The position numbers and the translations under genes were made by a program. From contig JAAFKJ010000073.1 in the NCBI GenBank assembly GCA_021399395.1, positions 1-36,806 of the forward strand: 36,806 nucleotides of DNA, given 5' to 3'. Source of the DNA: Candidatus Heimdallarchaeota archaeon (GTDB taxonomy: Archaea > Asgardarchaeota > Heimdallarchaeia > Heimdallarchaeales > Heimdallarchaeaceae). The notes under the pieces were generated by a model, which was not told where the DNA came from, did not search any database, and saw only the letters and a list, made by a program, of their open reading frames with translations. The stretch's first letter is position 1. Every line of letters starts with the position of its first letter. This document shows, one piece after another, positions 14,102-36,593 of this stretch.

Positions 14102-15679
14102 ATGCTTCACCAGATCTATACTCTTGGAAATAAGCATCGACAGACCATAGCATTATTTCTTATCTTAAATATCTTAATTGTAGGTTTCCAAACTGAAAAC
14201 ACATATGGCGATCCATTACATCTAAACGTTATAATTGGTGATTCTTATCTTTCACAAGAAGCGTATGAAGGGTTTAATCTCTTCTTATTAGAAAGAAGAA
14301 ATTTCATTGAGTATAAAGTTCTGAATAGAACAATATTGATTACGGATTTAGAGGGACAGATCTACCTAGAAAATGAGATAGGGATTATAAAGGACATCTG
14401 CGCAGTACCTGTTGAATTTGTTAATTCAACAACCATTCTCTATGTTGACAATAATGGAGCAAATCTGTGGAATTTAGCTGTAGGAAAATCTGTAGAACTG
14501 GGACCTGTTGGGCACCATGAAGTGGAATTCAATTATGGTAACAATTCTTATTTCACTCTCCAAGCATATCATACAGATGAAGGTGAATTAACTTCAGTAT
14601 ATGAGAGAATTGTAGAATATTCTTTTGCTGGAGAAGAAATCTGGTCGGTTGACACTCACGATTTTGTTAATATTTCTCACTGGTGCCCATATGAAGATAT
14701 GTCAGGAGATCGAAGAGATGTAACACATTCTAATACTATTTTCTACGATGAACCGAATGACATTATTTACTTAAATTGCAGAAATACTAACACGTTCTAT
14801 AAGATTGATCACAAGACGGGGGAGTTAGTTTGGAGTTTAGGTGAATTTGGTGACTTTTCACTATATGACATAGATGGTAATATGAAAGATTCGTTATTTT
14901 ACCATGCCCATGCACTTGAGATGATTGAAGAAAATAAATTCGTCATCTTCGATAATGATCTTCATAACAAAACCAATGCAAATAACTTGCGTTCACGACT
15001 CGTTGAGATAACTGTTGATTATGATAAGATGATAGCAAACATTTCACGAGAATGGATATCTCCTACAGATTATTATAGTGGGATCTGGGGAGATTGCGAT
15101 CTTCTCCCAAATGGCAATTTTCTAGGAGTATTTGGAACACTAAGTCATCCTGATTCAGAATATGGAGCCAGATTAGTAGAAGTAAATAAAGATAACGACA
15201 TTGTGTGGGAACATTCTTTTCCACAACAAGGTCAAGAATCTTATGCAGTTTATAGAATGGAACGTTTTCGATTTTCCCCTTATGTATCTGAACCTATTCT
15301 TTTGGATTTAGGAGTAAATGGGAGCTTTCTAGAATGGAATGTGTGGTATAATTTCAGATCAAAAACAGAATTTACGGGAAAGTACTATATTTCTATTGAT
15401 GATGAAATTGTTGAAAATAACACCATAGTTTTTCCGAGATTATGGAAGCCAACAACTATCTCTTTGAATGTCACAAACTATATTATTGGTGATCATGAAT
15501 TCTCTTTAGCTGTTGCAGATGAAAGCAATCATTTCTCAAATGACACTGAAGTCTATAAATCTTTCAGCAATATCTCTGTAACAATTTTTAATGAGTCAGG
15601 TTTTGATATTAAACAACTAATTACATATCCAGTAATTGCTGTTTTCCTCATGTTGATAATTAGGAAACGAAGACTTTGA
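14102..15679 (+). CDS. ASST-like membrane-anchored beta-propeller, copy 2
   Basis: Same architecture as copy 1: signal segment with helix ALFLILNILIVGF (about 18-30), propeller, Ig-like domain around EWNVWYNFRSKTEF, then a membrane helix and RKRRL tail. Histidine motifs are THSNTIFYDE, FYHAHALE and FDNDLHNKT. The conserved cysteines are in HWCPYEDM and WGDCDLLPN; extra cysteines occur in KDICAVP and LNCRNTN. It is the most diverged in its C-terminus, where VADESNHFSND replaces the DEAGHLSN motif and the tail is shorter. A 56-base stretch is identical to copy 3. It starts 126 bases from the divergent YyaL gene, sharing that intergenic promoter region. Confidence 0.75.
   Translation: MLHQIYTLGNKHRQTIALFLILNILIVGFQTENTYGDPLHLNVIIGDSYLSQEAYEGFNLFLLERRNFIEYKVLNRTILITDLEGQIYLENEIGIIKDICAVPVEFVNSTTILYVDNNGANLWNLAVGKSVELGPVGHHEVEFNYGNNSYFTLQAYHTDEGELTSVYERIVEYSFAGEEIWSVDTHDFVNISHWCPYEDMSGDRRDVTHSNTIFYDEPNDIIYLNCRNTNTFYKIDHKTGELVWSLGEFGDFSLYDIDGNMKDSLFYHAHALEMIEENKFVIFDNDLHNKTNANNLRSRLVEITVDYDKMIANISREWISPTDYYSGIWGDCDLLPNGNFLGVFGTLSHPDSEYGARLVEVNKDNDIVWEHSFPQQGQESYAVYRMERFRFSPYVSEPILLDLGVNGSFLEWNVWYNFRSKTEFTGKYYISIDDEIVENNTIVFPRLWKPTTISLNVTNYIIGDHEFSLAVADESNHFSNDTEVYKSFSNISVTIFNESGFDIKQLITYPVIAVFLMLIIRKRRL
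15071..15126 (+). repeat. 56-base perfect repeat, partner at 16706-16761
   Basis: Bases 15071-15126 (copy 2) are identical to 16706-16761 (copy 3), while the DNA on both sides differs at many third codon positions. It encodes the YYSGIWGDCDLLPNGNFLG segment. Gene conversion is the likely cause. Confidence 0.8.
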
Positions 15680-15707
15680 TCAGAACTTTACGAGGTTAAA
15701 TAATAAA

Positions 15708-15717
15708 AAATTTATAT
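15708..15717 (+). promoter_or_regulatory. TATA box of ASST-like gene 3
   Basis: AAATTTATAT overlaps the first possible ATG (15716) and lies about 26 bases before ATG 15740. This makes 15740 the better start, since transcription would begin near it. Confidence 0.5.
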
Positions 15718-15739
15718 GCATCAAATACTACTCTTTCCA

Positions 15740-17344
15740 ATGAGCTTCCTTTCAACCAAAAAACTGTTTACGATTGTTTTGATTTCCTTTCTTACAATAC
15801 AAGCTACAACAGTTCAGAGCTTTAACCTTAATAATAATATCAAATATGATTACTTCTTTGAGGTCGTGAAATTTGATGTAACTGCCAGTTCTGATAGGTT
15901 TGAAGGTTACAATCTTTTTGTTGTAGAAAGGCATGACGGTGTTACATGGGCAGCATTTAATAGAACGCTAGTAATTGCAGATTTGGATGGAAATATTTAC
16001 TTCACTAAGGAACTATATACTGAAGGAGCTTTAGCAGATTACGCAACAGAATTTGTTAACTCTACAACCATACTTTATGGAGATGAGGATGGCTCTTATC
16101 TATGGAATCTGGAAACAGATATCACCCAATATCTGAATTTTAGTGGGCATCATGATTATGAACGAAATTATGCAAATGACACATATTTTGCACTACAAGG
16201 AGAGATTGTAAAAGAAGAGTACAACTCGTATTTATTCGATAGGATTATCGAATATGATTCAACTGGTGCAGAAATTTGGCACGTCAACACATCTAATTTT
16301 GTTGATTTTACTCAGTGGTGTCCATATGAAGATATGTCAGGATCTCATAGAGATTTAACGCATTCAAATACAGTTTTTTATGATGAAAAAGAGGATGTGA
16401 TATATCTTAATTCTAGAAACCTAAACACCTTCTATAAAATTGATCATAAGACTGGAGATGTCATTTGGGCATTGGGAGAGTATGGTAATTTCACTCTATT
16501 CGATATTAGTGGAAATGAGAAGGATATCTTATTCTTCCATACTCACGCTTTAGAGAAAATCGATTATAATAAATTCATAATGTTTGATAACGATGAACAC
16601 AATCAAACTAATATTACAAATTTTCAATCTAGACTTTTAGAGATCACTATTGATGAAGATAAAATGTATGCAAATGTCTCGTGGGAATGGATTTCTCCTC
16701 GGGAATATTATAGTGGGATCTGGGGAGATTGCGATCTTCTCCCAAATGGCAATTTTCTAGGTGTATTCGGAGTTACAGGACATCCTAATACTGAATATGG
16801 AGCTAGATTAGTTGAAGTTAACATTACAGGTGATATCGTTTGGGAATATTCTTTTGCTAAAGCAGGTTCGGATGTTTTTGGAGTTTATAGAATAGAAAGA
16901 TTCAGATTTGCACCTATAGTTTCAACACCAACATTCCACAATTTAGGAGTAAATGATAGTTATTTAGAATGGGATGTGTGGTATAACTTCAGATCTAAAA
17001 CATTTTTCGAAGGAGAGTTCTACATATCAAAGGATGATGAACTAGTTGAAAGTGGAGCAATAGAATTTCCAAGATACTGGCAGAATACAACAGTAAGATA
17101 TAACATTTCTGAAACAGAATTAGGAGAACATGAAGTCTCTCTTGTGGTTTCAGATGAAGCAGGGCATCTTTCAAATGATACGGATAGATATAGTTCCACA
17201 GGTTCGATCTCTTATAGAACCCTTAGAAAAACCGGATTAGTAATAGGTCTTTCTGTTGGATTAGGAGTATCAATTCTTGCTGGAGTAATTGTACTTGTCT
17301 GGTTTAAATTTGTAAAGAAGAAATCCATTTTCAAGAGAAAGTAA
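15740..17344 (+). CDS. ASST-like membrane-anchored beta-propeller, copy 3
   Basis: A frame opens at ATG 15716, but that codon lies inside the TATA box, so ATG 15740 (MSFLSTKKLF, giving 534 residues) is chosen. The signal helix is KLFTIVLISFLTIQA. Propeller motifs are QWCPYEDMSG, THSNTVFYDE, FFHTHALEK, FDNDEHNQT and WGDCDLLPNGN. The Ig-like domain (EWDVWYNFRSKTFF to VSLVVSDEAGHLSND) is followed by a membrane helix LVIGLSVGLGVSILAGVIVLV and the tail KKKSIFKRK. It is closest to copy 1 overall by eye, yet shares a 56-base identical patch with copy 2. Sequons such as NRT, NST and NDT are plentiful, as expected outside the cell. Confidence 0.75.
   Translation: MSFLSTKKLFTIVLISFLTIQATTVQSFNLNNNIKYDYFFEVVKFDVTASSDRFEGYNLFVVERHDGVTWAAFNRTLVIADLDGNIYFTKELYTEGALADYATEFVNSTTILYGDEDGSYLWNLETDITQYLNFSGHHDYERNYANDTYFALQGEIVKEEYNSYLFDRIIEYDSTGAEIWHVNTSNFVDFTQWCPYEDMSGSHRDLTHSNTVFYDEKEDVIYLNSRNLNTFYKIDHKTGDVIWALGEYGNFTLFDISGNEKDILFFHTHALEKIDYNKFIMFDNDEHNQTNITNFQSRLLEITIDEDKMYANVSWEWISPREYYSGIWGDCDLLPNGNFLGVFGVTGHPNTEYGARLVEVNITGDIVWEYSFAKAGSDVFGVYRIERFRFAPIVSTPTFHNLGVNDSYLEWDVWYNFRSKTFFEGEFYISKDDELVESGAIEFPRYWQNTTVRYNISETELGEHEVSLVVSDEAGHLSNDTDRYSSTGSISYRTLRKTGLVIGLSVGLGVSILAGVIVLVWFKFVKKKSIFKRK
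16706..16761 (+). repeat. 56-base perfect repeat, partner at 15071-15126
   Basis: Partner of the identical stretch in copy 2; flanks diverge immediately on both sides. Confidence 0.8.
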
Positions 17345-17374
17345 TTTTATTAGTTCCACAGAAATCAGGAGAAA

Positions 17375-17384
17375 GAATAATAAA
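17375..17384 (+). promoter_or_regulatory. TATA-like box of ASST-like gene 4
   Basis: AATAATAAAC is centred about 27 bases before ATG 17407, favouring that ATG over the GTG at 17404. Confidence 0.4.
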
Positions 17385-17406
17385 CACTAGTTGAAAGATT
17401 AACGTG

Positions 17407-19023
17407 ATGGTCTTATTTCTTAGTTTAAATAAATCTAAATTTACAAAAAGAAAAGTTTTCTCACTTATCATCTTTATTCTTATTTTTTCTAGTTCGAATC
17501 CAAATTTATCAGTTTCTGCAGGAACTGTGAAGACTTATGAAACTACCATAAAGAATGTGCTAACAGAAGAAGCTTTTGAAGGATATAATCTATTTGTTCT
17601 TGAAAGAAGTAGTGTTCAAGGATTGATCCCGATAAATAGAACATTATTAATTACAGACTTGGAAGGGAATATTTACTTGAGCAAAGAATTTGGAGGACAA
17701 GCAAATCTAGATTTCTTTGGAGTGGAATTCATAAATTCAACAACGCTACTTTATGGAGACCAAACTGGTGCTAAACTCTGGAATATAGAAACAAATGTCA
17801 CTAAGAATCTATACATCTATGGCCATCACGATTATGAACGAAACTATGCAAATGACACTTACTTTGCTATAAGTAAATACATAGCCAATATAGAGGGTGT
17901 TGATTACCTCTTTGATATTGTCAAAGAATACTTAGATGACGGCTCTCTGGTTTGGCAATTAGACACTAGAGATTTCACTACCCATGAACAATGGTGCCCT
18001 TATGAAGACATGGTAGAGACTTCTAGAGACATCACACATACGAATACTGTTTTTTATGACGAAGATGAAGATGCAATTTACATCAACTGTAGAACGATTA
18101 ATACAATCTATAAAATCGATCATAAAACAAAAGACATAATTTGGTCTTTGGGAGAATACGGTAATTTCACTCTTTTTGACATCTATGGAAATGAGATTGA
18201 CATAATGTTTTATCATGCACATGCTCTCGAGAAAATTGATGATAACACATTCATTATTTTCGACAATGATGAACATAATCAAACTGATAATTCTAATAAA
18301 CAATCAAGAATGCTCGAGTTCAAAATAGATACAAATCGAATGTATGCCAACACAACATGGGAGTGGATAGCTCCAGAAACGTATTTTACTGGGTGGTGGG
18401 GGGATTGCGATGTTCTACCGAATAATAATAGGTTGGGGGTATTTGGCACCCATTGGCATCCTAGTACAAGTATTGGAGCTAGGTTAGTAGAAGTTGATTT
18501 TCATGGTGATATAGTCTGGGAGATGAATTTTGATAAAGATGGACAGGATTGCTTTGGTGTATACAAAATGGAACGATTTCACTTTGCACCAATTGTCTCT
18601 AATCCTGAGTTACATGATCTTGGAGACAATGGGAGTCTAGTTGAATGGGATGTGTGGTACAATTTTAGAGCTAAAACTGAATTCCAAGGAGAATATTTCA
18701 TCTCTATTGATGATGAGGTAGTGGAAACAGGGATTTTAGACTTCCCCAAATATTGGCTACCAACCCAAATCAGTTACTATCTAAATGAGTCTTTTTCAGG
18801 TGACCATGAAATTACTCTTGTTGTATCTGATGAGGGGGGTCACTTGTCGAATGAAACAGATAGATATAGTTCAACAGGTAAGCTGACATTTACTACATCT
18901 CCTCACCTTGCTCTAATCTTAGGCCTTTCAATAGGATTGGGTGTCCCAACTTTAATTGGGATAATGATGATTATAAGGATAAGATTCTTTCCGGATAAGT
19001 CGCTTTTCAAAAAGAAGAAATGA
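17407..19023 (+). CDS. ASST-like membrane-anchored beta-propeller, copy 4
   Basis: A GTG at 17404 directly precedes the ATG at 17407; the ATG is chosen from the TATA spacing, giving 538 residues. The signal helix is FSLIIFILIFSSS. Motifs are QWCPYEDMVE, THTNTVFYDE, FYHAHALEK, FDNDEHNQT and WWGDCDVLPNNNRLG. The last shares a long near-identical DNA segment with copy 5 around AATAATAATAGGTTGGGG. The Ig-like domain ends VVSDEGGHLSNETDRY; the membrane helix is LALILGLSIGLGVPTLIGIM, with tail FPDKSLFKKKK. An additional cysteine occurs in GQDCFGVY. Sulfotransferase activity is inferred from family resemblance only. Confidence 0.75.
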   Translation: MVLFLSLNKSKFTKRKVFSLIIFILIFSSSNPNLSVSAGTVKTYETTIKNVLTEEAFEGYNLFVLERSSVQGLIPINRTLLITDLEGNIYLSKEFGGQANLDFFGVEFINSTTLLYGDQTGAKLWNIETNVTKNLYIYGHHDYERNYANDTYFAISKYIANIEGVDYLFDIVKEYLDDGSLVWQLDTRDFTTHEQWCPYEDMVETSRDITHTNTVFYDEDEDAIYINCRTINTIYKIDHKTKDIIWSLGEYGNFTLFDIYGNEIDIMFYHAHALEKIDDNTFIIFDNDEHNQTDNSNKQSRMLEFKIDTNRMYANTTWEWIAPETYFTGWWGDCDVLPNNNRLGVFGTHWHPSTSIGARLVEVDFHGDIVWEMNFDKDGQDCFGVYKMERFHFAPIVSNPELHDLGDNGSLVEWDVWYNFRAKTEFQGEYFISIDDEVVETGILDFPKYWLPTQISYYLNESFSGDHEITLVVSDEGGHLSNETDRYSSTGKLTFTTSPHLALILGLSIGLGVPTLIGIMMIIRIRFFPDKSLFKKKK

Positions 19024-19029
19024 AACATA

Positions 19030-19043
19030 AAAAATAAAAATAT
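19030..19043 (+). promoter_or_regulatory. TATA-like box of ASST-like gene 5
   Basis: AAAAATAAAAATAT is centred about 26 bases before ATG 19063, with no Shine-Dalgarno at the start codon. Confidence 0.45.
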
Positions 19044-19062
19044 GCTCTGAGATGAACAGTTA

Positions 19063-20655
19063 ATGTCGTGTGTATCTATCAATTTACTACTCAAATCGAA
19101 GAAAGTGATTATACTTATTTTTGTTCTTCTAAACTCTGTAATCCTCTCTTCTAATCTATCAATCACAGCTGATATAGATGATTATCTGTTTGAAGCTAAT
19201 CTAGAGTATAATGACGCAGATAAGAGGTTTGATGGATACAATCTATTTGTGGTTGAAAAAAGAGACAAATATGACTGGCATATTGAGAACAGAACACTCT
19301 TGATAACTGATATGGATGGAAACATCTACTTTGATAGACAATTAGGGATTACAAGTGTTTTTGTTGACTATACTGCTAAATTTATCGATTCTAAAACAGT
19401 TATGTATGGAGAAGATGATGGAATTAGGTTATGGAATATCGAAACTAACGAAACATTACAGTTGGATATTGCAGGACATCACGATTACGATAAGAATTAC
19501 AAAAGAAACTCATATTACTCAGTTTATGGCTATGCAGATGAAATCGATGAAGTGAAATATATTTTCGATTACATAAAGGAGACGAGAGCTGATGGGACAG
19601 ATATATGGTCCATTAGTACCAGAGAATTTTTGAGTTTAGATCAATGGTGTTCATATGAGGATATGTTAGGAGAATCGAGAGATATTTCTCACGTAAACAC
19701 TTTATGTTATGATGAAGATGATGATTCCCTTTATGTAAATGTCAGGAATGTAAATACGTTTTATAAAATCGACATTCAAACTAAAGAAATTGTATGGGGA
19801 TTAGGAGAATATGGAGATTTTACCTTGTATGATATTAATGGTCAACAGAAAGATGTTCTTTTCTATCACGCACATGCTATTGAAAAAAGTAGAGATAATA
19901 CTTTTGTTTTATTTGATAATGATTTTCATAATGAGACAAATGCCAACAATAGAGAGTCGAGATTGCTTGAAATCGTAATTGACGAAGATAAAATGCAAGC
20001 TAATGTAACTTGGGAGTGGAACTCGCCTATAGATTATTATAGTGACATCTGGGGAGACTGTGATGTTCTACCAAATAATAATAGGTTGGGGGTATTTGGA
20101 ACTCATACTCATCCCAGAACAGATTTGGGTGCAAGGTTAGTTGAAGTAGATTTTAATGGCGATATTGTTTGGGAAATGTCTATTCCTGAACAAAAAGGGT
20201 TCACCTATGGTGTTTACACAATTGAGAGAATACATTTTGCTCCAATAGTTTCTGAACCAGTCTTTATAGATGAAGGTGGTGGTTCAGGTTATCTTTTATG
20301 GGATGTGTGGTACAATTTTAGAGCTAAAACAGAGTTTGAGGGGATGTATTATATCAATGTTGATGGAGTAGATGTTGTAACAGATCAGATTGTTTTTCCT
20401 AAATACTGGCAAAGTGAAAAGATAAAATATTATACAGATTTAGCTAATGTTCAAAGTCAAGATATTTCTCTAATAGTTGAGGATGAAGCAGGTCATAGAT
20501 CGAATGTGAGTGAGAGCTATTCGCCTATTGGATCAATAGATATGAAAATAATAACGCAAAGACTCTCAGAATCTAATCTGATTGTTACAATTGCTCTTAT
20601 TTGTTTAATCATAAGATATAAGCTAAAGAAACCAAAAAAGAAAGTAAATTTGTGA
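19063..20655 (+). CDS. ASST-like membrane-anchored beta-propeller, copy 5
   Basis: 530 residues. The signal helix is KVIILIFVLLNSVIL. Motifs have drifted from the others: QWCSYEDMLG, SHVNTLCYDEDD (THSN becomes SHVN), FYHAHAIEK, FDNDFHNET and WGDCDVLPNNN. The segment that links bound sugar-like repeats in the other copies (GHHDYERNYANDTYF) reads GHHDYDKNYKRNSYY here. The Ig-like domain keeps LLWDVWYNFRAKTEF and VEDEAGHRSN. The C-terminal helix SNLIVTIALICLII lacks the GLSIGLG glycine pattern of copies 1, 3 and 4, and the tail is RYKLKKPKKKVNL. It ends 6 bases before copy 6, so the two are probably cotranscribed. Confidence 0.75.
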   Translation: MSCVSINLLLKSKKVIILIFVLLNSVILSSNLSITADIDDYLFEANLEYNDADKRFDGYNLFVVEKRDKYDWHIENRTLLITDMDGNIYFDRQLGITSVFVDYTAKFIDSKTVMYGEDDGIRLWNIETNETLQLDIAGHHDYDKNYKRNSYYSVYGYADEIDEVKYIFDYIKETRADGTDIWSISTREFLSLDQWCSYEDMLGESRDISHVNTLCYDEDDDSLYVNVRNVNTFYKIDIQTKEIVWGLGEYGDFTLYDINGQQKDVLFYHAHAIEKSRDNTFVLFDNDFHNETNANNRESRLLEIVIDEDKMQANVTWEWNSPIDYYSDIWGDCDVLPNNNRLGVFGTHTHPRTDLGARLVEVDFNGDIVWEMSIPEQKGFTYGVYTIERIHFAPIVSEPVFIDEGGGSGYLLWDVWYNFRAKTEFEGMYYINVDGVDVVTDQIVFPKYWQSEKIKYYTDLANVQSQDISLIVEDEAGHRSNVSESYSPIGSIDMKIITQRLSESNLIVTIALICLIIRYKLKKPKKKVNL

Positions 20656-20661
20656 TGATTT

Positions 20662-22236
20662 TTGAAGTATAAATCCTTAAAAACTAAAGTTAGCGTTTTA
20701 ATCTTTTTAATTTTGTTATGCAATTCTACTACAGATTACCACTTACTTTTTAATAGGTTATTTGTTTTTGATAGCTTTAGCTCACAAGCTAATAATGAAA
20801 GTGATACAGATTACTTCAAAGGTTACAATTTATTCGTTCTAGAAACTTGTGATCGCGATGATTGGATTTTCAATAAGTCCCTGATAATTGCTGACTTAGA
20901 AGGCAATATCTATTTTCAAAAAGTGATTGGTACAGATATGGTGGGGTTGGAAGTTTCTCCTGAATTCATCAACTCTACAACAATTCTATACTCTGATAGT
21001 AACGGAGCAAATCTGTGGAACTTCGAAACAGATGAAGTTGTGAATCTGAACATTTTTAGCCATCACGATTTAGAGAGAAACTATGCATATGATTCTTACT
21101 TCTCACTCTCTCATTACACAGTAAGCTATGAAGATGAACAATATCTCTATGATATAGTTTATGAACATTCTTCATCAAAAGAACTACTCTGGTTCTTTAG
21201 AACAGATCTTATAGTGTCCCCAGATCAATGGTGCGTATATCAAGGAATGAGTGGAGATAGACGAGATCTCACTCACACTAATACAGTGATTTACGATGAA
21301 GTAGATGACTCAATATATCTACAAATGAGACACGTGAACTCTTTCTACAAAATTGATCACAAAACTATGTCTTTGATATGGTCTTTGGGAGAATATAGCA
21401 ATTTCACTCAATACGACATAAATGGACAACTAAAGGATATACTCTTTTATCATGCACATGCTTTAGAAAAAGTTAATGATAACACCTACATTCTTTTTGA
21501 TAATGATCAACACAATCAAACAGATGCTCTAGACCAGGCATCAAGATTACTAGAGATCACTGTTGATGAAGAAAGAATGATTGCTAATGTCACTTGGGAT
21601 TGGATTGCCCCCAAAGAGTATTTCTGCAAGATTTGGGGAGATTGTGATCTTTTACCAAATGGTAACTTCCAAGGAACTTTTGGAACTCATAATCATCCTG
21701 ATACAAATTTAGGTGCAAGGTTAGTTGAAGTAAACAGAAATGGAGAAATTGTTTGGAAAATGGACTTTGCGAGAACTCCAAATGAAACCTATGGTATATA
21801 CCAAACTGATAGATTTCGATTTGCACCTATTGTTTCAGAACCAAGATTAGTCAAAGAACAGACTCATCAGTATGTTGAATGGGACGTGTGGTACAATTTT
21901 AGAGCTAAAACAGAGTTCTCTGGTAAATACTACATTACAGTCGATGGTACGCTTGTAGAAACCGATCAGATTACTTTTCCACGTTATTGGCAATCCACAA
22001 ATGTAAGGTATTATTTGAACGACACTGATGATGAAATTGAAGAAATCTCTCTCGTAGTTGAGGATGAAGCAGGACATCTATCTAATGATACAGACAAATA
22101 TAGTTCAGTTGGGACATTGAATATTAAGAAATCAAGAATTGCTTTAATTCTCGGCACGTCAATTGGAGGAGCTATTTTTCTAGGTGTACTTACTTATATA
22201 TCTATTAGATTTTTCAAAAAGAAAAAAAGAATTTGA
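20662..22236 (+). CDS. ASST-like membrane-anchored beta-propeller, copy 6
   Basis: Starts with TTG six bases after the copy 5 stop; no ATG in frame precedes the signal helix (KTKVSVLIFLILLCNS), so TTG and translational coupling are the best reading. No TATA box sits at the right distance, unlike the other copies. It has the usual motifs THTNTVIYDE, FYHAHALEK, FDNDQHNQT and WGDCDLLPNGN, but QWCVYQGMSG replaces QWCPYEDMSG, the most altered version in the array. The Ig-like domain holds EWDVWYNFRAKTEF and VEDEAGHLSNDTDKY. The membrane helix is IALILGTSIGGAIFLGVLTYI, with tail FFKKKKRI. It ends 12 bases from the converging membrane-protein gene. Confidence 0.75.
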   Translation: MKYKSLKTKVSVLIFLILLCNSTTDYHLLFNRLFVFDSFSSQANNESDTDYFKGYNLFVLETCDRDDWIFNKSLIIADLEGNIYFQKVIGTDMVGLEVSPEFINSTTILYSDSNGANLWNFETDEVVNLNIFSHHDLERNYAYDSYFSLSHYTVSYEDEQYLYDIVYEHSSSKELLWFFRTDLIVSPDQWCVYQGMSGDRRDLTHTNTVIYDEVDDSIYLQMRHVNSFYKIDHKTMSLIWSLGEYSNFTQYDINGQLKDILFYHAHALEKVNDNTYILFDNDQHNQTDALDQASRLLEITVDEERMIANVTWDWIAPKEYFCKIWGDCDLLPNGNFQGTFGTHNHPDTNLGARLVEVNRNGEIVWKMDFARTPNETYGIYQTDRFRFAPIVSEPRLVKEQTHQYVEWDVWYNFRAKTEFSGKYYITVDGTLVETDQITFPRYWQSTNVRYYLNDTDDEIEEISLVVEDEAGHLSNDTDKYSSVGTLNIKKSRIALILGTSIGGAIFLGVLTYISIRFFKKKKRI

Positions 22237-28688: not shown

Positions 28689-31517
28689 CTAGCAAATGCT
28701 TGCTTCATATTCTTCTACATCAGGTAATGGATAAAGTTTGCGTACAATGAATTTTCTAAGTTCCTCAGCAAGGAAAATTGGTATGACTATAGAGAAGATA
28801 ATCCCCCAATGTTCTATGTTTAACGGTGTTGTTTTGACGAAAGTATTCATGAAAGGAACATAAACTGCAAAAAGAATAAGAGCTAATCCAAGGAAAATTG
28901 CACCAAAGAGAGATCTGTTTTTGAAAATCTTTCTCGAGAAGACTGAACCATCTAAGCTAGTTGAAATGGAGTTGAATAGCTGAAAGATTACTATGGCTAC
29001 AAAAACCATTGTTTGAGCTCGTTTCAAGGAATTGATGTAAGTTTCAGAGCCTAGAACAGCAAGATCAGCACCCCAGTTTGTTGTCCAGTAGAAGATTATC
29101 ATCGAACCTCCTGCATAGAGAATACCTGTGAAGATAATCTTGAATAACATCCGTTTGCCAATTAAAGGTTCTTTTGGATCTCTAGGAGGACGTCGCATAA
29201 CATTTGACTCAGGTGCGCTTATACCTAAAGCCAATGCAGGAAAAGTATCTGTAACGATATTGATGAACAAAAGATGGATAGCTAAAACTGCAAGTTCAAT
29301 ACGTTCTAGAAAAATTGCACTGATAACCAGACCAAGAAGTACAGTCAAAATTTCTCCAGCATTAGCTGATAGAAGATAGGAAATGAAGCGTTTAATATTA
29401 TCGTAGATAATCCTACCTTCAGAGATTGCATCAATAATATTAGCAAAATTATCATCAGTAAGAATCATGTCACTAGCTTCTTTAGCTACATCAGTTCCAG
29501 AAATACCCATTGCGACCCCTATATCACTTCTTTTCAAGGCAGGAGCGTCGTTGACCCCGTCACCTGTCATGATTGTTACCTCTCCTTGTTTCTTCAGAGC
29601 ATTGACAATCCTCAGTTTATGAGAGGGATTTACTCGAGCAAAAATCTCTGTTTCATAGACAGCTTCTTCTAATTCTTCATCGCTCATCTCATCAAGTTGC
29701 GCACCTGAAATTGGCTCCATCCCTGCGCATAAAGCAATTGATCTACCAATTGCTTTTGCAGTTTCCATATGGTCTCCCGTGATCATGATAACATTAATCC
29801 CCGCTGCACGTGCTTTGTCGATTGATGGTTTAGACTGGTCTCTTGGTGGATCTATCATTGCTACAAAACCAACAAAGGTCAAATCTTTTTCAGCTTCTCC
29901 ACTAAAACCAGTTAGGATAATTTTTGTAGCTTCCTCTTGATCCAAATGACGAAAGGCTATACCCAGTATTCTATAAGCATAATTCGCTGAGTAAGAATTG
30001 CTTACTGTCAAGACTCTTTCTTTATCTTCAGCTGTCATGGGTTGTATTCCTTCGTGTGTATATTTTGATTCACATAAATCAAGCAACAAATCTGTAGCTC
30101 CTTTGATCATCAATGCATTTTCAGCAGTTTCCTTATTCTGAACAAGCACGCTCATCATCTTTCTCTCGCTATCAAATGGAAATAGATATTGTCTTGCCCA
30201 AGAGCTAATAATCTCACCTCTAAGGTGGCTTTTCTCAGCTAAAATGAGCAAAGCTACTTCGGTGGGGTCACCAAATATATCAAAATCGGGTGTATCATCT
30301 TTAATGCTAATAGAAGCTTCATTTGCGAGAGTGCAAACTTCTAGGGTTTTAAGCAATATAGGATCATCGTTCGCATCTTTTATTTCTGCACTATCTGTAC
30401 AAATTATGTCCCCATTATCAGAATAACCTGTTCCTGTTACATCATAGGGATGATCCATCGTCCAAATAGCTTTCACTGTCATCTCATTCTTTGTTAATGT
30501 ACCTGTTTTATCTGTGCAAATTACTGTAGAAGAGCCCAATACTTCTACAGCTGGAAGGTTTCTAATCAGGGATCGCTTTTTAGCCATTCTAGTTACTCCC
30601 ACAGCCATAGTAAGAGTCAGAACTACAGGCAATCCTTCTGGAACAGCTGCAACAGCTAAACCTATCGCAAAGATTACAACATCAGATGGTTTTTCAGGGT
30701 CCATCAATAAAAATCCTAAAAGTAAAATGATTGCAGAAAGAATAACTACACCAATGGTTAGTTGTTTTGCTAATTTAGCTAGTTTCTTTTGAAGAGGAGT
30801 ATCATCTGATTTAATATCCATAAGAGACGTAGCGATTTTACCTAATTCGGTTTCAAGTCCTGTAGCAACAACTATTCCTAACCCGGATCCATTTACTACT
30901 GTTGTCCCCTTGTAAAGCATGTTGATTCTATCGGCTAAAGGAGTTTTTTCTGGTAGGATATTGGTTTGCTTCCTAACAGGTAGAGACTCTCCGGTTAAAA
31001 TTCCCTCAAGAGTTCTTACTTCATAGCTTTCAACTAATCGTATATCAGCAGCAATAGTACTCCCTGCATCAAGAGATACAGTATCACCAGGAACTACATC
31101 TTCTGAACTAATCAAAGTTTTTATCTGATCACGAACTACTACAACTTCACTGACTGATAGATTTTTCAGAGCATTCATTGCCTTTTCAGCTGTTAGTTCC
31201 TGATAAAACCCTAATCCTGCGTTAACAGCTACAACTATGAATATTGCTACTACATCAATTATCGCTTCACTATCTTTTTCTATTATCCCCAATATTCCTG
31301 TGATAAGTCCAGAAACAAGTAAAATTATGATAAGTAAATCTGTAAACTGGCTAAGTAATATCTTCCAAGGGCTTATAGAACGACCAGAAGGGATAGTATT
31401 TTTACCATATTTTTCAAGTCTTTCTTTTGCTTCTTTGGAGCTTAAACCTTCAAAACGAGAATCAAGTAAAGTGTATAAATCGTTTGGATTTTTGTCATGA
31501 CCATCCATTGGACTCAT
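28689..31517 (-). CDS. P-type ATPase, SERCA-like (type IIA), copy 1
   Basis: Pumps cations, probably Ca2+, across the membrane using ATP. Visible: actuator motif LEGILTGESLPV, M4 motif AAVPEGLPVVLTLTMAVG, phosphorylated D336 in CTDKTGTLT, hinge TGDGVNDAPALKRSDIGVAMG. Calcium-site residues of SERCA are matched: Glu in PEGLP (M4), N and E in SANAGEILTV (M5), N, T and D in INIVTDTFPALALG (M6). The length (942) and ten-helix plan are normal for the family. ATG 31517 has a TATA-like AATATTTTTAAT about 27 bases upstream, suggesting a leaderless message. It follows copy 2 by about 100 bases, after a T-run, so the two may be separate transcripts. The exact ion is inferred. Confidence 0.93.
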   Translation of the reverse strand: MSPMDGHDKNPNDLYTLLDSRFEGLSSKEAKERLEKYGKNTIPSGRSISPWKILLSQFTDLLIIILLVSGLITGILGIIEKDSEAIIDVVAIFIVVAVNAGLGFYQELTAEKAMNALKNLSVSEVVVVRDQIKTLISSEDVVPGDTVSLDAGSTIAADIRLVESYEVRTLEGILTGESLPVRKQTNILPEKTPLADRINMLYKGTTVVNGSGLGIVVATGLETELGKIATSLMDIKSDDTPLQKKLAKLAKQLTIGVVILSAIILLLGFLLMDPEKPSDVVIFAIGLAVAAVPEGLPVVLTLTMAVGVTRMAKKRSLIRNLPAVEVLGSSTVICTDKTGTLTKNEMTVKAIWTMDHPYDVTGTGYSDNGDIICTDSAEIKDANDDPILLKTLEVCTLANEASISIKDDTPDFDIFGDPTEVALLILAEKSHLRGEIISSWARQYLFPFDSERKMMSVLVQNKETAENALMIKGATDLLLDLCESKYTHEGIQPMTAEDKERVLTVSNSYSANYAYRILGIAFRHLDQEEATKIILTGFSGEAEKDLTFVGFVAMIDPPRDQSKPSIDKARAAGINVIMITGDHMETAKAIGRSIALCAGMEPISGAQLDEMSDEELEEAVYETEIFARVNPSHKLRIVNALKKQGEVTIMTGDGVNDAPALKRSDIGVAMGISGTDVAKEASDMILTDDNFANIIDAISEGRIIYDNIKRFISYLLSANAGEILTVLLGLVISAIFLERIELAVLAIHLLFINIVTDTFPALALGISAPESNVMRRPPRDPKEPLIGKRMLFKIIFTGILYAGGSMIIFYWTTNWGADLAVLGSETYINSLKRAQTMVFVAIVIFQLFNSISTSLDGSVFSRKIFKNRSLFGAIFLGLALILFAVYVPFMNTFVKTTPLNIEHWGIIFSIVIPIFLAEELRKFIVRKLYPLPDVEEYEASIC

Positions 31518-31585
31518 GATGATAAGGAATGAACATCAATTAAAAATATTGGTTGGACATGAATATCCTATTTCAAGGAAATATT

Positions 31586-31602
31586 AAAAAAAAAAAAAAA
31601 AA
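31586..31602 (-). terminator. 17-base poly-T terminator after P-type ATPase 2
   Basis: Seventeen consecutive A on the + strand (T on the minus strand) start 18 bases after the stop of ATPase copy 2, followed on the minus strand by AATATTT. A run of this length is a strong archaeal stop signal. Confidence 0.6.
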
Positions 31603-31620
31603 GAAAAGTAAAAGAGGAAT

Positions 31621-34500
31621 TTAATGCATTCCTACAAAAGTTGCAAACTTAGCCATTCTTTCAGTTCTTAGGGCGTATCTGAACATCTCGAATAAGATAC
31701 AGAGACCCAAAGTGAACCCTAGGATTATTCCCCAATCAGCCCAACCAACAAGGTAATAAGCGAAACCGTCATCAGGTTTGAATCCTGTAAATACTGCTTG
31801 GAATGGAGGAATATAAATCACACCAAGTAAGAAAATCCATGAGAGAACTACTGCTCCGATCAAGTATTTATTCTTAAATGGATGAGATTTGAGGAATGAC
31901 GTAGCATTATCGTTCCGAGCAATGAATACAAACCACAATTCAAATGATAGAGTTGCAACAAATGCTAATGTTTGAGAATAAGCAACCTTTGCATCATGGA
32001 GTTGTTCAGCATCTAAAGTTAAGCTGTTTGCAGCAGCCCAATCGGCAATAACACGATCACCAATTCCCAAGTAACCTACTAAAAAGATTCCAAGTGAAGC
32101 AATTAGAGCTATAAGTCCAGCAAATGAAGCAAAAGCGTACATATCTCTTACAAAAGATGATTTTTTACCTCGTGGTGGACGTTGCATTAAGGAAGCGTCA
32201 TAAGGATCAAAGGATAATGATAGGGCAGGTAAAGCATCTGTGAGTAAGTTGAGGAAGAGAATCTGTAACGGTAAGAAAGGTAGCTCTTGAAATGCTGCAT
32301 AAATTATTAAAACTGCAAAAATTTCATCGAAGTTACAACTCAAGAGATAACGGATGAATTTCTTCATGTTCTCAAAGATGTTACGACCTTCTTCAACAGC
32401 AGAGACAATAGTATTAAAAGCATCATCAGTAATGACCATAGCTGCAACCTCTTTAGAGACGTCGGTACCAGTGATTCCCATAGCTACACCGATATCGGCT
32501 TTCTTCAAAGCTGGGGCATCATTGACACCATCTCCGGTTACAGCAACAACATGGTCCAGTTCTTGCAATATTTCTACTACGCGATATTTGTCTTTTGGAC
32601 TCATCCTACTGTAGACTTTTATGCCTTCTATCTTCTCTTGTAATTCTTCATTTGTCATAGTAGCGAATACTTCACCACTCACAACCAAATCCTCATCTGA
32701 TTCAACAATTCCAATTTCTTTTGCTACTGCTACTGCAGTTGGTTCTTGATCCCCAGTTATCATCACAGTTGTAATTCCAGCCATTCTACATTCTTCTATA
32801 GCACCTTTTACTTCTGGCCTGGCGGGGTCAATCATTCCGGTTAACCCTAGAAATATCATATCATCTTCTATTTCATTTTCTTTTGTCTTATCGTAATCTT
32901 TCGGCAATTCCCTATAAGCAACAGCTAATACTCTTAGTGCTTTTTCCGCAAGAGCAAGATTAGATTTCATTATTTCTCCTTCTAAATCTTTAGTCATCTT
33001 TGCTTCTTTGCCTTTCTCAATTGCGTAATTACACCTTGTAATAACAACAGGAGGACTTCCTTTCATGAATGCGTATTTCTTTCCATTGTCATCATGAATT
33101 GTTGTCATCCTTTTCCTGTCTGAATCAAAGAATATTTCATGCTCCATTTTCAATAACATTTCTTTTGAAAATCCTGCTTTTTCTGCTACTACAAGTAAAG
33201 CTGCTTCTGTTGGGTCTCCTTTGATATTTATTCTATCGTCCTCTCTAAGAACAGCTGAATTATTACAGTGATAACTTGTTTGTAGCACTGATTTCAAAGA
33301 TGGTATTGTCATAGGATCGACTTTCTTTCCGTCTTTTACGAAATCTCCATCTAGTAGGTAACCTGAACCTCCGACTTGATACAGTCCATCAATTGTCCAG
33401 ATTTCTTTAACTGTCATTTCGTTTCTGGTTAATGTACCTGTTTTATCACTGCAGATATAATCTACTGAACCTAGTGTTTCTACAGCTGGTAATTTTGAGA
33501 CAATAGTCTTCTTCTTTGCCATCTTTGAAACACCAATTGCTAAAGTAATCACTATTGCAGCTGGTAATCCTTCTGGTACAGCTGAAATTGCCAAAGCAAC
33601 TGCGGTTTCAAAGCTTTCCAGAAACCTTTCACCAAGTATAGCCCAATCAATTATCATTACTATTGCACAGAGAACTAGAATTATTATCCCTAGAACTTTC
33701 CCTAATTTATCTAGAGCTTGTTGTAATGGAGTCAATTCTTCTTTGACTTGAGTAAGTTCTGCTATTCTACCCATTTCTGTGCTCATTCCTGTAGCAGCAA
33801 CAATAGCTTCTCCTCGCCCATAAACACATGTAGTTCCTGAAAATATCATATTCTTTTTATCATGAATTCTTGCTTCTTCGGGAACTAGTTCTGTATTCTT
33901 TGTGACCGAGGATGATTCTCCAGTTAGAGAAGCTTCATCCACTTTGAAATTATTTGCAATTGTTAATCTACAGTCCGCTGGAATTTTGTCTCCTACTTCT
34001 AGTCGTACAATATCCCCAGGAACAAGTTCCGCACTGTGAACAATTTTTTCTTTACCTTCTCTTAATACTACAACTTCTTGTTCAAAGTATTCTTTCAATT
34101 TTGCTAAAGCTTGATTAGATCTATAATCTTGTACGAAACCTATTATCGCATTAATTATTACAATTGTAAAAATCGCAATCGCATCAATTATTTCTGATGT
34201 GCCCCCCTCTTCTCCTGCACCCACTAACCCTATAATCAAGCTGATGGTTCCCGCAATTATCAACAGTATAACTAAGAAACTTGTAAACTGGTTAATAACC
34301 ATTTTAATAACTTTAAAACGATCACTGATTGTCAGTTTATTTGGACCATAACGCTCAAGACGTGATACTACATCATTCTCAAATAAACCTTTTTCGTCAG
34401 TTTGTAGCTCTTTGTATACTTCTTTAATCTCCATATTATGCCATGGGATTAGTTCTTCGACTTCTTGTGGTATTTCATTCTTCTTCTTTTTCTTCAACAT
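31621..34500 (-). CDS. P-type ATPase, SERCA-like (type IIA), copy 2
   Basis: 959 residues beginning with a lysine-rich segment MLKKKKKNEIPQEV. Motifs: VDEASLTGESSSV (actuator), M4 ISAVPEGLPAAIVITLAIG, D352 in CSDKTGTLTRNEM, hinge TGDGVNDAPALKKADIGVAMG. M5 keeps the SERCA N and E in SCNFDEIF, and M6 keeps N, T and D in FLNLLTDALPALSLSF. It has an extra hydrophilic insert between helices near IGDRVIADWAAANSL that copy 1 lacks, and it ends with a short tail. It is clearly a diverged paralogue, not a recent duplicate. A TATA-like box at 34519-34528 sits about 25 bases before the ATG. The two pumps may serve different ions or affinities. Confidence 0.93.
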   Translation of the reverse strand: MLKKKKKNEIPQEVEELIPWHNMEIKEVYKELQTDEKGLFENDVVSRLERYGPNKLTISDRFKVIKMVINQFTSFLVILLIIAGTISLIIGLVGAGEEGGTSEIIDAIAIFTIVIINAIIGFVQDYRSNQALAKLKEYFEQEVVVLREGKEKIVHSAELVPGDIVRLEVGDKIPADCRLTIANNFKVDEASLTGESSSVTKNTELVPEEARIHDKKNMIFSGTTCVYGRGEAIVAATGMSTEMGRIAELTQVKEELTPLQQALDKLGKVLGIIILVLCAIVMIIDWAILGERFLESFETAVALAISAVPEGLPAAIVITLAIGVSKMAKKKTIVSKLPAVETLGSVDYICSDKTGTLTRNEMTVKEIWTIDGLYQVGGSGYLLDGDFVKDGKKVDPMTIPSLKSVLQTSYHCNNSAVLREDDRINIKGDPTEAALLVVAEKAGFSKEMLLKMEHEIFFDSDRKRMTTIHDDNGKKYAFMKGSPPVVITRCNYAIEKGKEAKMTKDLEGEIMKSNLALAEKALRVLAVAYRELPKDYDKTKENEIEDDMIFLGLTGMIDPARPEVKGAIEECRMAGITTVMITGDQEPTAVAVAKEIGIVESDEDLVVSGEVFATMTNEELQEKIEGIKVYSRMSPKDKYRVVEILQELDHVVAVTGDGVNDAPALKKADIGVAMGITGTDVSKEVAAMVITDDAFNTIVSAVEEGRNIFENMKKFIRYLLSCNFDEIFAVLIIYAAFQELPFLPLQILFLNLLTDALPALSLSFDPYDASLMQRPPRGKKSSFVRDMYAFASFAGLIALIASLGIFLVGYLGIGDRVIADWAAANSLTLDAEQLHDAKVAYSQTLAFVATLSFELWFVFIARNDNATSFLKSHPFKNKYLIGAVVLSWIFLLGVIYIPPFQAVFTGFKPDDGFAYYLVGWADWGIILGFTLGLCILFEMFRYALRTERMAKFATFVGMH

Positions 34501-34615: not shown

Positions 34616-34933
34616 TTAACTAAGAAATTGTTTTAATTTACGGATTAATTCATCAATATCTTCTTCTGTATTATAGAAATGAGGACTTATCCTAAGACCA
34701 CCATACCGGCTAGAGATAATGATATTCTCACTATTGAGTTTTTTAGCTAGTTCGATGTTGTTAGGGAGACGAATGTTTACGACACCTGATCTGTGTTTTT
34801 CCTCTAGAGGAGAGATGAACTCATAGTTTCCAAGATTTTGTAGCTCGTGAATTAAATAATTTGTCAGTTTCATAATTCTTTTCTCAACATTTGCTATTCC
34901 ATATTCAAGGATTTTAAGTGGTTTCTTGTACAT
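34616..34933 (-). CDS. Aminotransferase class V, C-terminal part (split gene)
   Basis: The 105-residue frame KILEYGIANVEKRIMK to IISSRYGGLRISPHFYNTEEDIDEL is the C-terminal subdomain of class V PLP aminotransferases (cysteine desulfurase-like), including the Arg-rich GLRISPHFYN substrate/cofactor segment. It cannot work alone. Its first codons (MYK) lie in the inserted segment; coding homology starts near Lys at 34924. Together with the N-terminal part it makes about 379 residues, the family's normal length, once 230 intervening bases are removed in frame. No decay (stops or shifts) is seen in it. Confidence 0.75.
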   Translation of the reverse strand: MYKKPLKILEYGIANVEKRIMKLTNYLIHELQNLGNYEFISPLEEKHRSGVVNIRLPNNIELAKKLNSENIIISSRYGGLRISPHFYNTEEDIDELIRKLKQFLS

Positions 34934-35154
34934 TTTTTGGTGTTTAAATAAGCCCGTGTAGAATATACGTCGAAGGATTGTAGCTATGCACCAACTTCAT
35001 GGTGATCCTCGGGGTTACATCCGACGAATAATAAAAAGCGACCCGTAAGCATTATTTACGAAGATGTGGGCGGTGTAGGAGGGGATGTGACGTCCCCATG
35101 ATGTGTCCTAGACACTTCTAAAGAATTTGTACAAAATTCATGTCATATCCATAC
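34925..35154 (-). other. 230-base structured insertion in the class V aminotransferase gene
   Basis: Between the two halves lies a segment with roughly half G+C in its centre, unlike its AT-rich flanks. On the gene strand it begins GTATGG and ends ACAAG, and the triplet AAG is repeated at both junctions. Stems: 35103-35115 (GTGTC/GACAC), 35081-35097 (GGGGA/TCCCC, 7-base loop), 35044-35060 (CGTAA/TTACG, 7-base loop), 34989-35004 (CACCA/TGGTG), and a bulged 11-bp stem pairing 34968-34982 with 35016-35026. TTGTACA occurs at 34926-34932 and 35127-35133, and the palindrome GAATTTGTACAAAATTC at 35123-35139. No group I, group II or known ribozyme core was recognised, and no ORF is inside. Confidence 0.7.
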
Positions 35155-35985
35155 CTTTACTAGAAAAAGAAAATCACTTGGGTTAGTATCCATGAATTTG
35201 GATACACCCTCAACATAGATCAACTCATTTACATTCCAGTATGGCTGATCATGTGAACCTGGATCAACACCATGATATCCAGCAAAAGGTGGATCAAATT
35301 CCGATATGTGGTCTTCTTTAATATAAAAATATCCAGCTTGATTAGCTCCCAGAAGCCATTTTGCCGTTCCACAAGTAAGAAAATCAACTCCCCATTCTTT
35401 GACATCATTAACTAAAGCTCCTGAAGATTGGATCGAATCAATGGCTATCAAAGCATCATTTTCATGAGCAATTTTAGCTATCTCTTTGACATCTGCTCTA
35501 CATCCAGATAACCATTGAACATGTGAGAGAAGTACAAGTTTGGTATTTTTATCTATCTTGTTTGCAAATTCTTCTGCAACTACACAGTTCTTTTGATCTG
35601 GAACAGGTCGATATTCAATATTCTTAGTTTTCTTCAGGAAAAGAGCTTGGTAGACTTGAGCAACATAATCGTTCCAATAACAGACTATGTTACTTTTATC
35701 ATCATAGTTTATCATGTTTGCAGCTAATCTGGAACCAGATGTAACATCTCGTGTAAAAACAATTTCCTCTTCTTTTGCATTTATGAGTTTTCCAAACTTT
35801 CCTCTTGCTTCCTGGAATACTTTGTTTGATTCTTCGAAATCAAATTCGCCCCAATATTCACTATATTCTTGTATTGCTTTTTGAGTTATTCCATGTAAAG
35901 GACCTCTAGAAGCATGGTTTAAGAAAATCTTCTTTTGAAGTGTTGGAGATTCTTCACGAATATTTTGGATGAAATTATCAACCAT
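35143..35985 (-). CDS. Aminotransferase class V, N-terminal part (split gene)
   Basis: Large PLP domain: FLNHASRGPLHGITQKAI near the start, FTRDVTSGSRLAANMI (cofactor phosphate), LLSHVQWLSGCRADV, AIDSIQSSGALVND and the PLP-lysine motif CGTAKWLLGANQAGYFYI. Relatives are cysteine desulfurases, selenocysteine lyases and isopenicillin N epimerase-like enzymes; the substrate is unknown. ATG 35985 is chosen over 35997 because a TATATATTT box near 36011-36020 is about 26-30 bases before it. Homology runs to PSDFLFLVK (about residue 277), then four foreign codons (VWI, stop) follow from the insertion. The frame is intact throughout, so the insertion is recent or is removed from the RNA. Confidence 0.78.
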   Translation of the reverse strand: MVDNFIQNIREESPTLQKKIFLNHASRGPLHGITQKAIQEYSEYWGEFDFEESNKVFQEARGKFGKLINAKEEEIVFTRDVTSGSRLAANMINYDDKSNIVCYWNDYVAQVYQALFLKKTKNIEYRPVPDQKNCVVAEEFANKIDKNTKLVLLSHVQWLSGCRADVKEIAKIAHENDALIAIDSIQSSGALVNDVKEWGVDFLTCGTAKWLLGANQAGYFYIKEDHISEFDPPFAGYHGVDPGSHDQPYWNVNELIYVEGVSKFMDTNPSDFLFLVKVWI

Positions 35986-36007
35986 GTTTAATAACATAGT
36001 AAAAACA

Positions 36008-36041: not shown

Positions 36042-36593
36042 CTACTTCTTTGGAAATCTATGTTTTAAGATAGATTCCAGCAGCTGATCAATGATCAATG
36101 AAATTCCTTTCCCAGATTTAGAAGAGACTTCGAAGAAATGGTTTTCAACATTATCTTTTTGCGACGTTCTATTAAGTCTGAAAACATATTCTTTTGCATC
36201 TATGGGATTGAGAGTTCGCTGGCTAGTTGCGCGTAAATCAGTTTTGTTACCAATTAACACCACGGGAACTTTCCCAAAGCCATTGTAATTAATTAATTCT
36301 TCAATCCAAAAAGGTGCATGACGGAAACTATTGGGGCTGCAAATGTCAAAGATTACAAAAGCTCCATGAACCCCTATATAGTGTTTGGATCTATTTGCAT
36401 TGGAGAGTTCCCTGCCAGGAATATCAAAAAGATTAACGGTAATCTGTTCTCCCCCAATTTTTCTTGTAAATTCGATCAAGTCTAGCTTAATAGAAGGTTT
36501 TTTTGTTGCGCCAGGAATATTCTTTTCAAACTGCTGAAAAAAGGAACTTTTCCCAACATTGTAGTCACCTAAAACTAGAATTTTATAGATCAT
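36042..36593 (-). CDS. Small Ras/Rab-like GTPase with altered switch residues
   Basis: G1 GDYNVGKSS (9-17), G3 FDIPGRE (D57, G60), G4 GNKTDL, G5 VSSKSGKG. The glutamine that activates water in Ras (Q61) is Arg here at the same position (R61), and the switch I threonine seems to be Ser (KKPSIKLD, S34). In eukaryotic GTPases such changes slow hydrolysis, so this protein may stay in the GTP state for long or depend on another factor. There is no C-terminal prenylation motif (ends HRFPKK). It is 61 bases downstream of another GTPase gene on the same strand, so they probably form a unit. Confidence 0.88.
   Translation of the reverse strand: MIYKILVLGDYNVGKSSFFQQFEKNIPGATKKPSIKLDLIEFTRKIGGEQITVNLFDIPGRELSNANRSKHYIGVHGAFVIFDICSPNSFRHAPFWIEELINYNGFGKVPVVLIGNKTDLRATSQRTLNPIDAKEYVFRLNRTSQKDNVENHFFEVSSKSGKGISLIIDQLLESILKHRFPKK

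Follow-up and report, generated by a model that had tools for sequence, protein, structure and literature searches.

The class V aminotransferase gene in the window (the whole stretch of 36,806 nt that was analysed, contig C164 of the 2.8-Mb draft host genome, G000) is interrupted by a short mobile element, which we take, with a probability of roughly 0.7, to be a tnpB-less satellite transposon similar to the palindrome-associated transposable elements (PATEs), carrying a stand-alone omega-RNA that would use TnpB in trans. Judged from its sequence, the element appears to carry a TnpB guide RNA of its own and would then be a parasite of other transposons. The chances are about even for the wider proposal of a class of satellite transposons, in which a promoter is combined with a self-sufficient TnpB guide RNA, a 5' domain replaces the tnpB frame and the TnpB of other elements is hijacked. 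The coordinates of all features are given in Table 1.

Table 1. Features of the interrupted gene and the inserted element (positions in the window)
Feature	Position	Strand	Basis or remark
Aminotransferase pseudogene, 5' part	35147..35997	-	7-nt deletion at about 35164/35165
Aminotransferase pseudogene, 3' part	34616..34915	-	Profile and orthologue comparison
Whole non-autonomous element	34916..35146	+ (IS/RNA orientation)	231 bp; left end AAGTGG..., right end ...GTCAT
Target/TAM position	34912..34915	+	TTTT in the window; TTAT in most copies and orthologous empty sites
TATA-box-like TTTAAATA	34942..34949	+	Archaeal type; resembles the box upstream of tnpB in TnpB elements
RNA 5' domain, stems P1 (bulged) and P2	34972..35022	+	Covariation; unmatched or deleted in alignments of tnpB loci
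Omega-RNA core: AAAAGCGA-CCG..., P3, CGG, GTAGGAGG, P4	35033..35097	+	Homology to tnpB 3' end; covariation
Stem P5 (GTGTCCTAGACAC)	35103..35115	+	Covariation
Right end	35124..35146	+	Near-palindrome AATTTGTACAAAATT, then CATGTCAT; conserved in full copies
Predicted guide-encoding flank in the aminotransferase gene	35147..35166	+	Analogy with TnpB omega-RNA (PMC8612924, PMC10097598)

Interruption of the aminotransferase gene

Two open pieces on the minus strand (35997-35143 and 34933-34616), both matched by PF00266 (Pfam), make up the class V aminotransferase. The preliminary description had already seen a gene split by a structured segment of higher G+C content, and both points were confirmed: all 20 close family orthologues are encoded by a single uninterrupted ORF (the search covered 22 relatives, 20 of which had such an ORF; the best orthologue is 82% identical). 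Comparison with named genomes gave one match, 83% identical, from a Candidatus Heimdallarchaeota MAG, which marks the host genome as Heimdallarchaeota-like. On these sequence comparisons, the interruption is real and, within the sampled set, private to the host genome.

The coding parts had been described as free of decay, which proved incorrect. Seven nucleotides are missing from the left coding part, as seen from TTTCTTTATTATATATCAAGTAGAGGAATGG in orthologue L043 vs TTTCTTTTTCTAGTAAAGGTATGG in the window, and, for the bases before the element, from TTTCTTTTTCTAGTAAAGGTATGGAT in the window vs TTTCTTTATTATATATCAAGTAGAGGAATGGAATTAATT in the same orthologue. With two lesions, the aminotransferase gene is a pseudogene. 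The deletion lies approximately 18 nt past the right end of the element, and since the TnpB of ISDra2 cuts 15-21 bp from the TAM (PMC8612924), it is conceivable that the deletion is a scar of TnpB cutting; it is a single case within an A/T-rich run, for which slippage is the alternative.

Boundaries, copies and target site of the element

The boundaries of the element were set by comparing 43 copies together with one exact empty site, where the orthologous locus reads AAATTAT/GAGCCAATG in genome G022 vs AAATTAT/element/AAACCAATG in genome G016. The insertion thus lies 3' of TTAT, and no target bases were duplicated. The copies and empty sites shift the unit of exactly 230 bases originally proposed (34925-35154) to one of 231 nt. 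The empty site also ruled out a TA target duplication of the Tc1/mariner-like kind, which had been suspected from the TA at both ends. Of the two explanations offered at first, the small non-autonomous element is sustained by the existence of a dispersed repeat family, and the 3-base target duplication that was part of it is not, as the element makes none. AAG, which recurs at the joints, and the TGTACA-type ends are not target duplications; TGTACA belongs to internal, subterminal palindromes located 10-20 nt from both ends, and the ends themselves (AAGTGG and GTCAT) are not inverted repeats. The element therefore has neither the terminal inverted repeats nor the target duplication of a classical MITE (DDE transposon). 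The T completing TTAT/AA is found in 28 of 34 copies with the left end TATAA, and the orthologues mostly read ATAATC on the gene strand (complement of GATTAT) at the target position. By sequence, the TTTT at the target in the window is probably the result of one later substitution.

The members of the family are 225-240 bp long and dispersed; the element itself contains no transposase or other protein gene. A search of the family genomes, proposed as a check in the preliminary description, did find copies at other sites, with matches in 16 of the 23 genomes. In the host genome there were eight DNA matches, among them two other full-length copies (94% and 91%) and several located at contig ends, where a repeat that interrupts assembly would be expected. 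The other copies are mostly intergenic and occur in both orientations, and one copy in G016 interrupts a gene resembling a metallo-beta-lactamase-fold hydrolase (judged by sequence, without a family search). Full copies recognised by the covariance model of the element (R1) are limited to the host genus and one sister genus; among 36 further genomes of the class, the model gave a single weak match, and phage records and IMG/VR contained no match to the element. The copies range down to relics consisting only of the right end. An autonomous partner with identical ends was considered as well, and the end-only matches examined proved to be truncated relics. Turnover of the family is visible in a copy whose two parts lie about 300 bp apart, separated by other sequence (L038, G004:C81) and in another with its left end deleted (L089, G009:C43). 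The host genome also contains halves of a further subfamily at contig borders, right-end halves in C92 and C149 and left-end halves in C175 and C20, in which the reading frame of the tnpB end is still open (KSDPKALSLNKVNGVGGDVTSP, then a stop); identical copies of this subfamily probably broke the assembly.

Promoter and covarying RNA structure

On its plus strand, antisense to the aminotransferase gene, the element encodes a predicted RNA of 147 nt with a covarying structure. The structure was drawn by hand from the same sequences in which it was then assessed (37 pairs in six helices), using an alignment of 34 distinct copies from the start of P1 to P5 and 500 shuffles as the control. Across the 34 copies, 95% of the cells were paired and two-sided changes occurred at 17 of the 37 pairs; none of the 500 shuffles, which ignore relatedness, reached any of the measures, and slid versions of the structure paired at 33-51%. 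Two-sided changes affect at least one pair in each helix, and several of them involve different lineages. The large excess of G.U over A.C (74 vs 16 cells, the outermost pair of helix 3 excluded) assigns the RNA to the plus strand of the window. Some of this covariation may go back to an ancestral RNA linked to tnpB and not be maintained in the element. In 29 of 31 copies, 32 nt separate the start of the TATA box from the GGATT of P1. This is about the usual archaeal distance between a TATA box and the start site, so transcription probably begins at P1.

The strand of the RNA also bears on the other explanation offered at first, namely an intron-like RNA that would be spliced out of the message of the aminotransferase to restore a protein of 379 residues. 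Computed removal of 230 or 233 nt does leave an open frame, and to this extent the reported restoration is correct, but removal of the 231 nt backed by the empty site results in a frameshift and an early stop because of the 7-nt deletion in the gene. The apparently exact fit of 230 bases is a coincidence. The corresponding join gives FLFLVKKPLKILEYG, without the Gly-Met found there in all eight orthologues checked as DNA. Clean excision of 233 bp (giving VWKILEYG) was likewise rejected, as the relatives need more bases and carry Gly-Met at this position. The Rfam search of the segment gave no intron family, either at gathering thresholds or at E values up to 1, and the structure, lying on the strand antisense to the aminotransferase, cannot therefore belong to an intron of its message. 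Together with the mostly intergenic location of the other copies in either orientation, this makes splicing scarcely credible.

Kinship with TnpB elements

The centre of the element aligns with the 3' coding end of tnpB (NILLKSDPQALPKR.VGGVGGYVMYP; KSDPKAL...VNGVGGYVMYP), and the protein with the matching 3' end is a TnpB of roughly 420 aa (Pfam OrfB_IS605 and Cas12f1-like_TNB). Model R1 matched tnpB 3' ends with E values from 1e-9 to 1e-13; these matches extend from AAAAGCGA to the P4 hairpin, in the 3' half of the RNA, with P1/P2 unmatched. Within P4, the GTGAY-type loop is kept, and the bases of the stem differ between the element and the tnpB loci. Read by eye, the tnpB elements show TTTAT as the target on the left and TCAT as the right end, with a TATA box shortly before tnpB; the TCAT right end and the TTAT target are common to both kinds of element. 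Published TnpB systems have a guide RNA that overlaps both the 3' end of tnpB and the right end, with the flanking DNA serving as the guide (PMC8612924, PMC10097598). Homologues of TnpB were found in 20 of the 23 genomes, with 24 matches in the host genome and 40 in G022, and the RuvC-like D/E/D motifs are kept in most of the host-genome TnpBs that were read.

The P1/P2 domain was not found in the tnpB elements examined, and its absence from tnpB loci excludes a simple internal deletion of a tnpB element as the whole story. No tnpB lies within the element, and none was observed in direct linkage with a correctly oriented full copy. The right-end sequence of the element did not turn up in any tnpB element, so homology of the core may not mean binding.

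The same observations can be set against the view that the element is a passive PATE or MITE, i.e., a TnpB element that has lost internal sequence and is moved in trans, its stems being no more than hairpins bound by a recombinase or remnants of the omega-RNA, without present guide activity. PATEs derived from IS605-type elements are known in Haloquadratum (PMC3119063), and the series of copies down to right-end-only relics fits such an origin. However, covarying stems lie deep within the element in 34 copies, the predominance of G.U over A.C points to RNA and not to single-stranded DNA, the promoter and its distance from P1 are conserved, and a 5' domain absent from tnpB elements exceeds what simple deletion would give. 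We therefore regard passive spread as unlikely, at about one chance in four. Very improbable is a host-domesticated regulatory RNA spread by transposition, whose flanking guide and a nuclease-dead TnpB would regulate genes, an arrangement comparable to TldR. Conservation of the promoter and the structure would agree with it, but the copies are scattered, vary between species and can interrupt genes, and most of the TnpBs read in the host genome keep their RuvC-like motifs.

Proposed origin and maintenance

According to the preferred reading, that of a satellite transposon with its own omega-RNA, the element inserted 3' of TTAT, antisense to the aminotransferase gene, would be one of the TnpB kind (IS200/IS605-IS1341). 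A compact RNA domain without coding function would have taken the place of its tnpB frame, with the left-end promoter and the omega-RNA core retained. Transcription from this promoter would run through the right end, whereby the flanking DNA would become the guide, and the RNA would be bound by an unlinked TnpB. After excision, the joined site of TTAT plus flank, corresponding to the guide, may be cut by TnpB, and repair from a remaining copy would then restore the element, whereas its movement would depend on a recombinase acting in trans. Retention by cutting of empty sites is the published model for TnpB transposons (PMC8612924), and it is applied here in trans.

Comparison with known elements

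The closest known kind of element is the PATE of Haloquadratum walsbyi. Like PATEs, and HqIRS71 in particular, which is derived from IS605-type elements and retains part of a C-terminal coding region (PMC3119063), the element is short, lacks a transposase gene, is present in many copies at a fixed target and has subterminal palindromes with neither a terminal inverted repeat nor a target duplication. Unlike PATEs, it belongs to a lineage of Heimdallarchaeota and has a promoter and a covarying RNA built of a TnpB omega-RNA core with an extra 5' domain; the promoter, the covarying guide-RNA scaffold and the separate 5' domain are what it adds to the known type. With the IS200/IS605 (IS1341-type) TnpB elements it has in common the T-rich target/TAM, insertion 3' of the target without duplication, an omega-RNA core overlapping the tnpB 3' end and an RNA ending at the right end (PMC8612924, PMC10097598). 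It differs from them in having no tnpB and a scaffold whose 5' half is a separate non-coding domain, and Y1 TnpA gave no match in the genus. IS607-type TnpB elements with reRNA are likewise RNA-guided (PMC11061315), and an IS607-type TnpA with a larger TnpB occurs in these genomes. That TnpB, however, differs from the roughly 420-aa protein matching the element. IStrons carry group I introns, and the idea of a transposon removed from RNA recalls them; unlike IStrons, the element gave no group I intron match and the frame is not restored. Omega-RNA-only elements of Asgard archaea were described in none of the open-licence papers searched.

Cas12 is considered to descend from TnpB, whose guide RNA is ordinarily bound to the tnpB gene. 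If the proposed reading is true, the scaffold and the nuclease would be separating in nature, resembling the separation of guide arrays from Cas12, and the family would provide a direct test of the idea that selfish DNA is maintained in trans by RNA-guided cleavage of empty sites. Belonging to an Asgard lineage close to where eukaryotes arose, it offers dozens of natural scaffolds whose flanking guides and targets are known.

Candidate mobilising enzymes and other genes in the window

A Y1 TnpA (PF01797) gave no match in the host and the other 20 genomes of the genus (21 in total, with incomplete assemblies and a divergent enzyme possible), and it is present in two sister genera. The roughly 420-aa TnpB family is strongly expanded in the host genome and its relatives despite the lack of such a match in the 21 genomes of the genus. 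In Haloquadratum, TnpB-type elements have been noted to transpose where TnpA is broken (PMC3119063). Serine recombinases of the IS607 type, accompanied by the different, larger TnpB, are found in several genomes. These IS607-type elements (L172-L178, e.g., L177 on host contig C195) encode a MerR-HTH/serine-recombinase TnpA of about 200 aa, mostly beside a second, larger TnpB-like protein starting with MRSYQVV. The 2-bp AT core common to the target and the ends would be compatible with a serine recombinase; by eye, the regions upstream of the IS607 TnpA genes had no obvious match to the left end of the element.

Elsewhere in the window, five consecutive arylsulfotransferase genes (PF05935; 524-542 aa) form a tandem array of paralogues on the plus strand (14102-22236), two adjacent P-type cation-transporting ATPases of 942 and 959 aa are encoded on the minus strand (28689-34500), and a Ras-family small GTPase gene is located beyond the aminotransferase (36042-36593).
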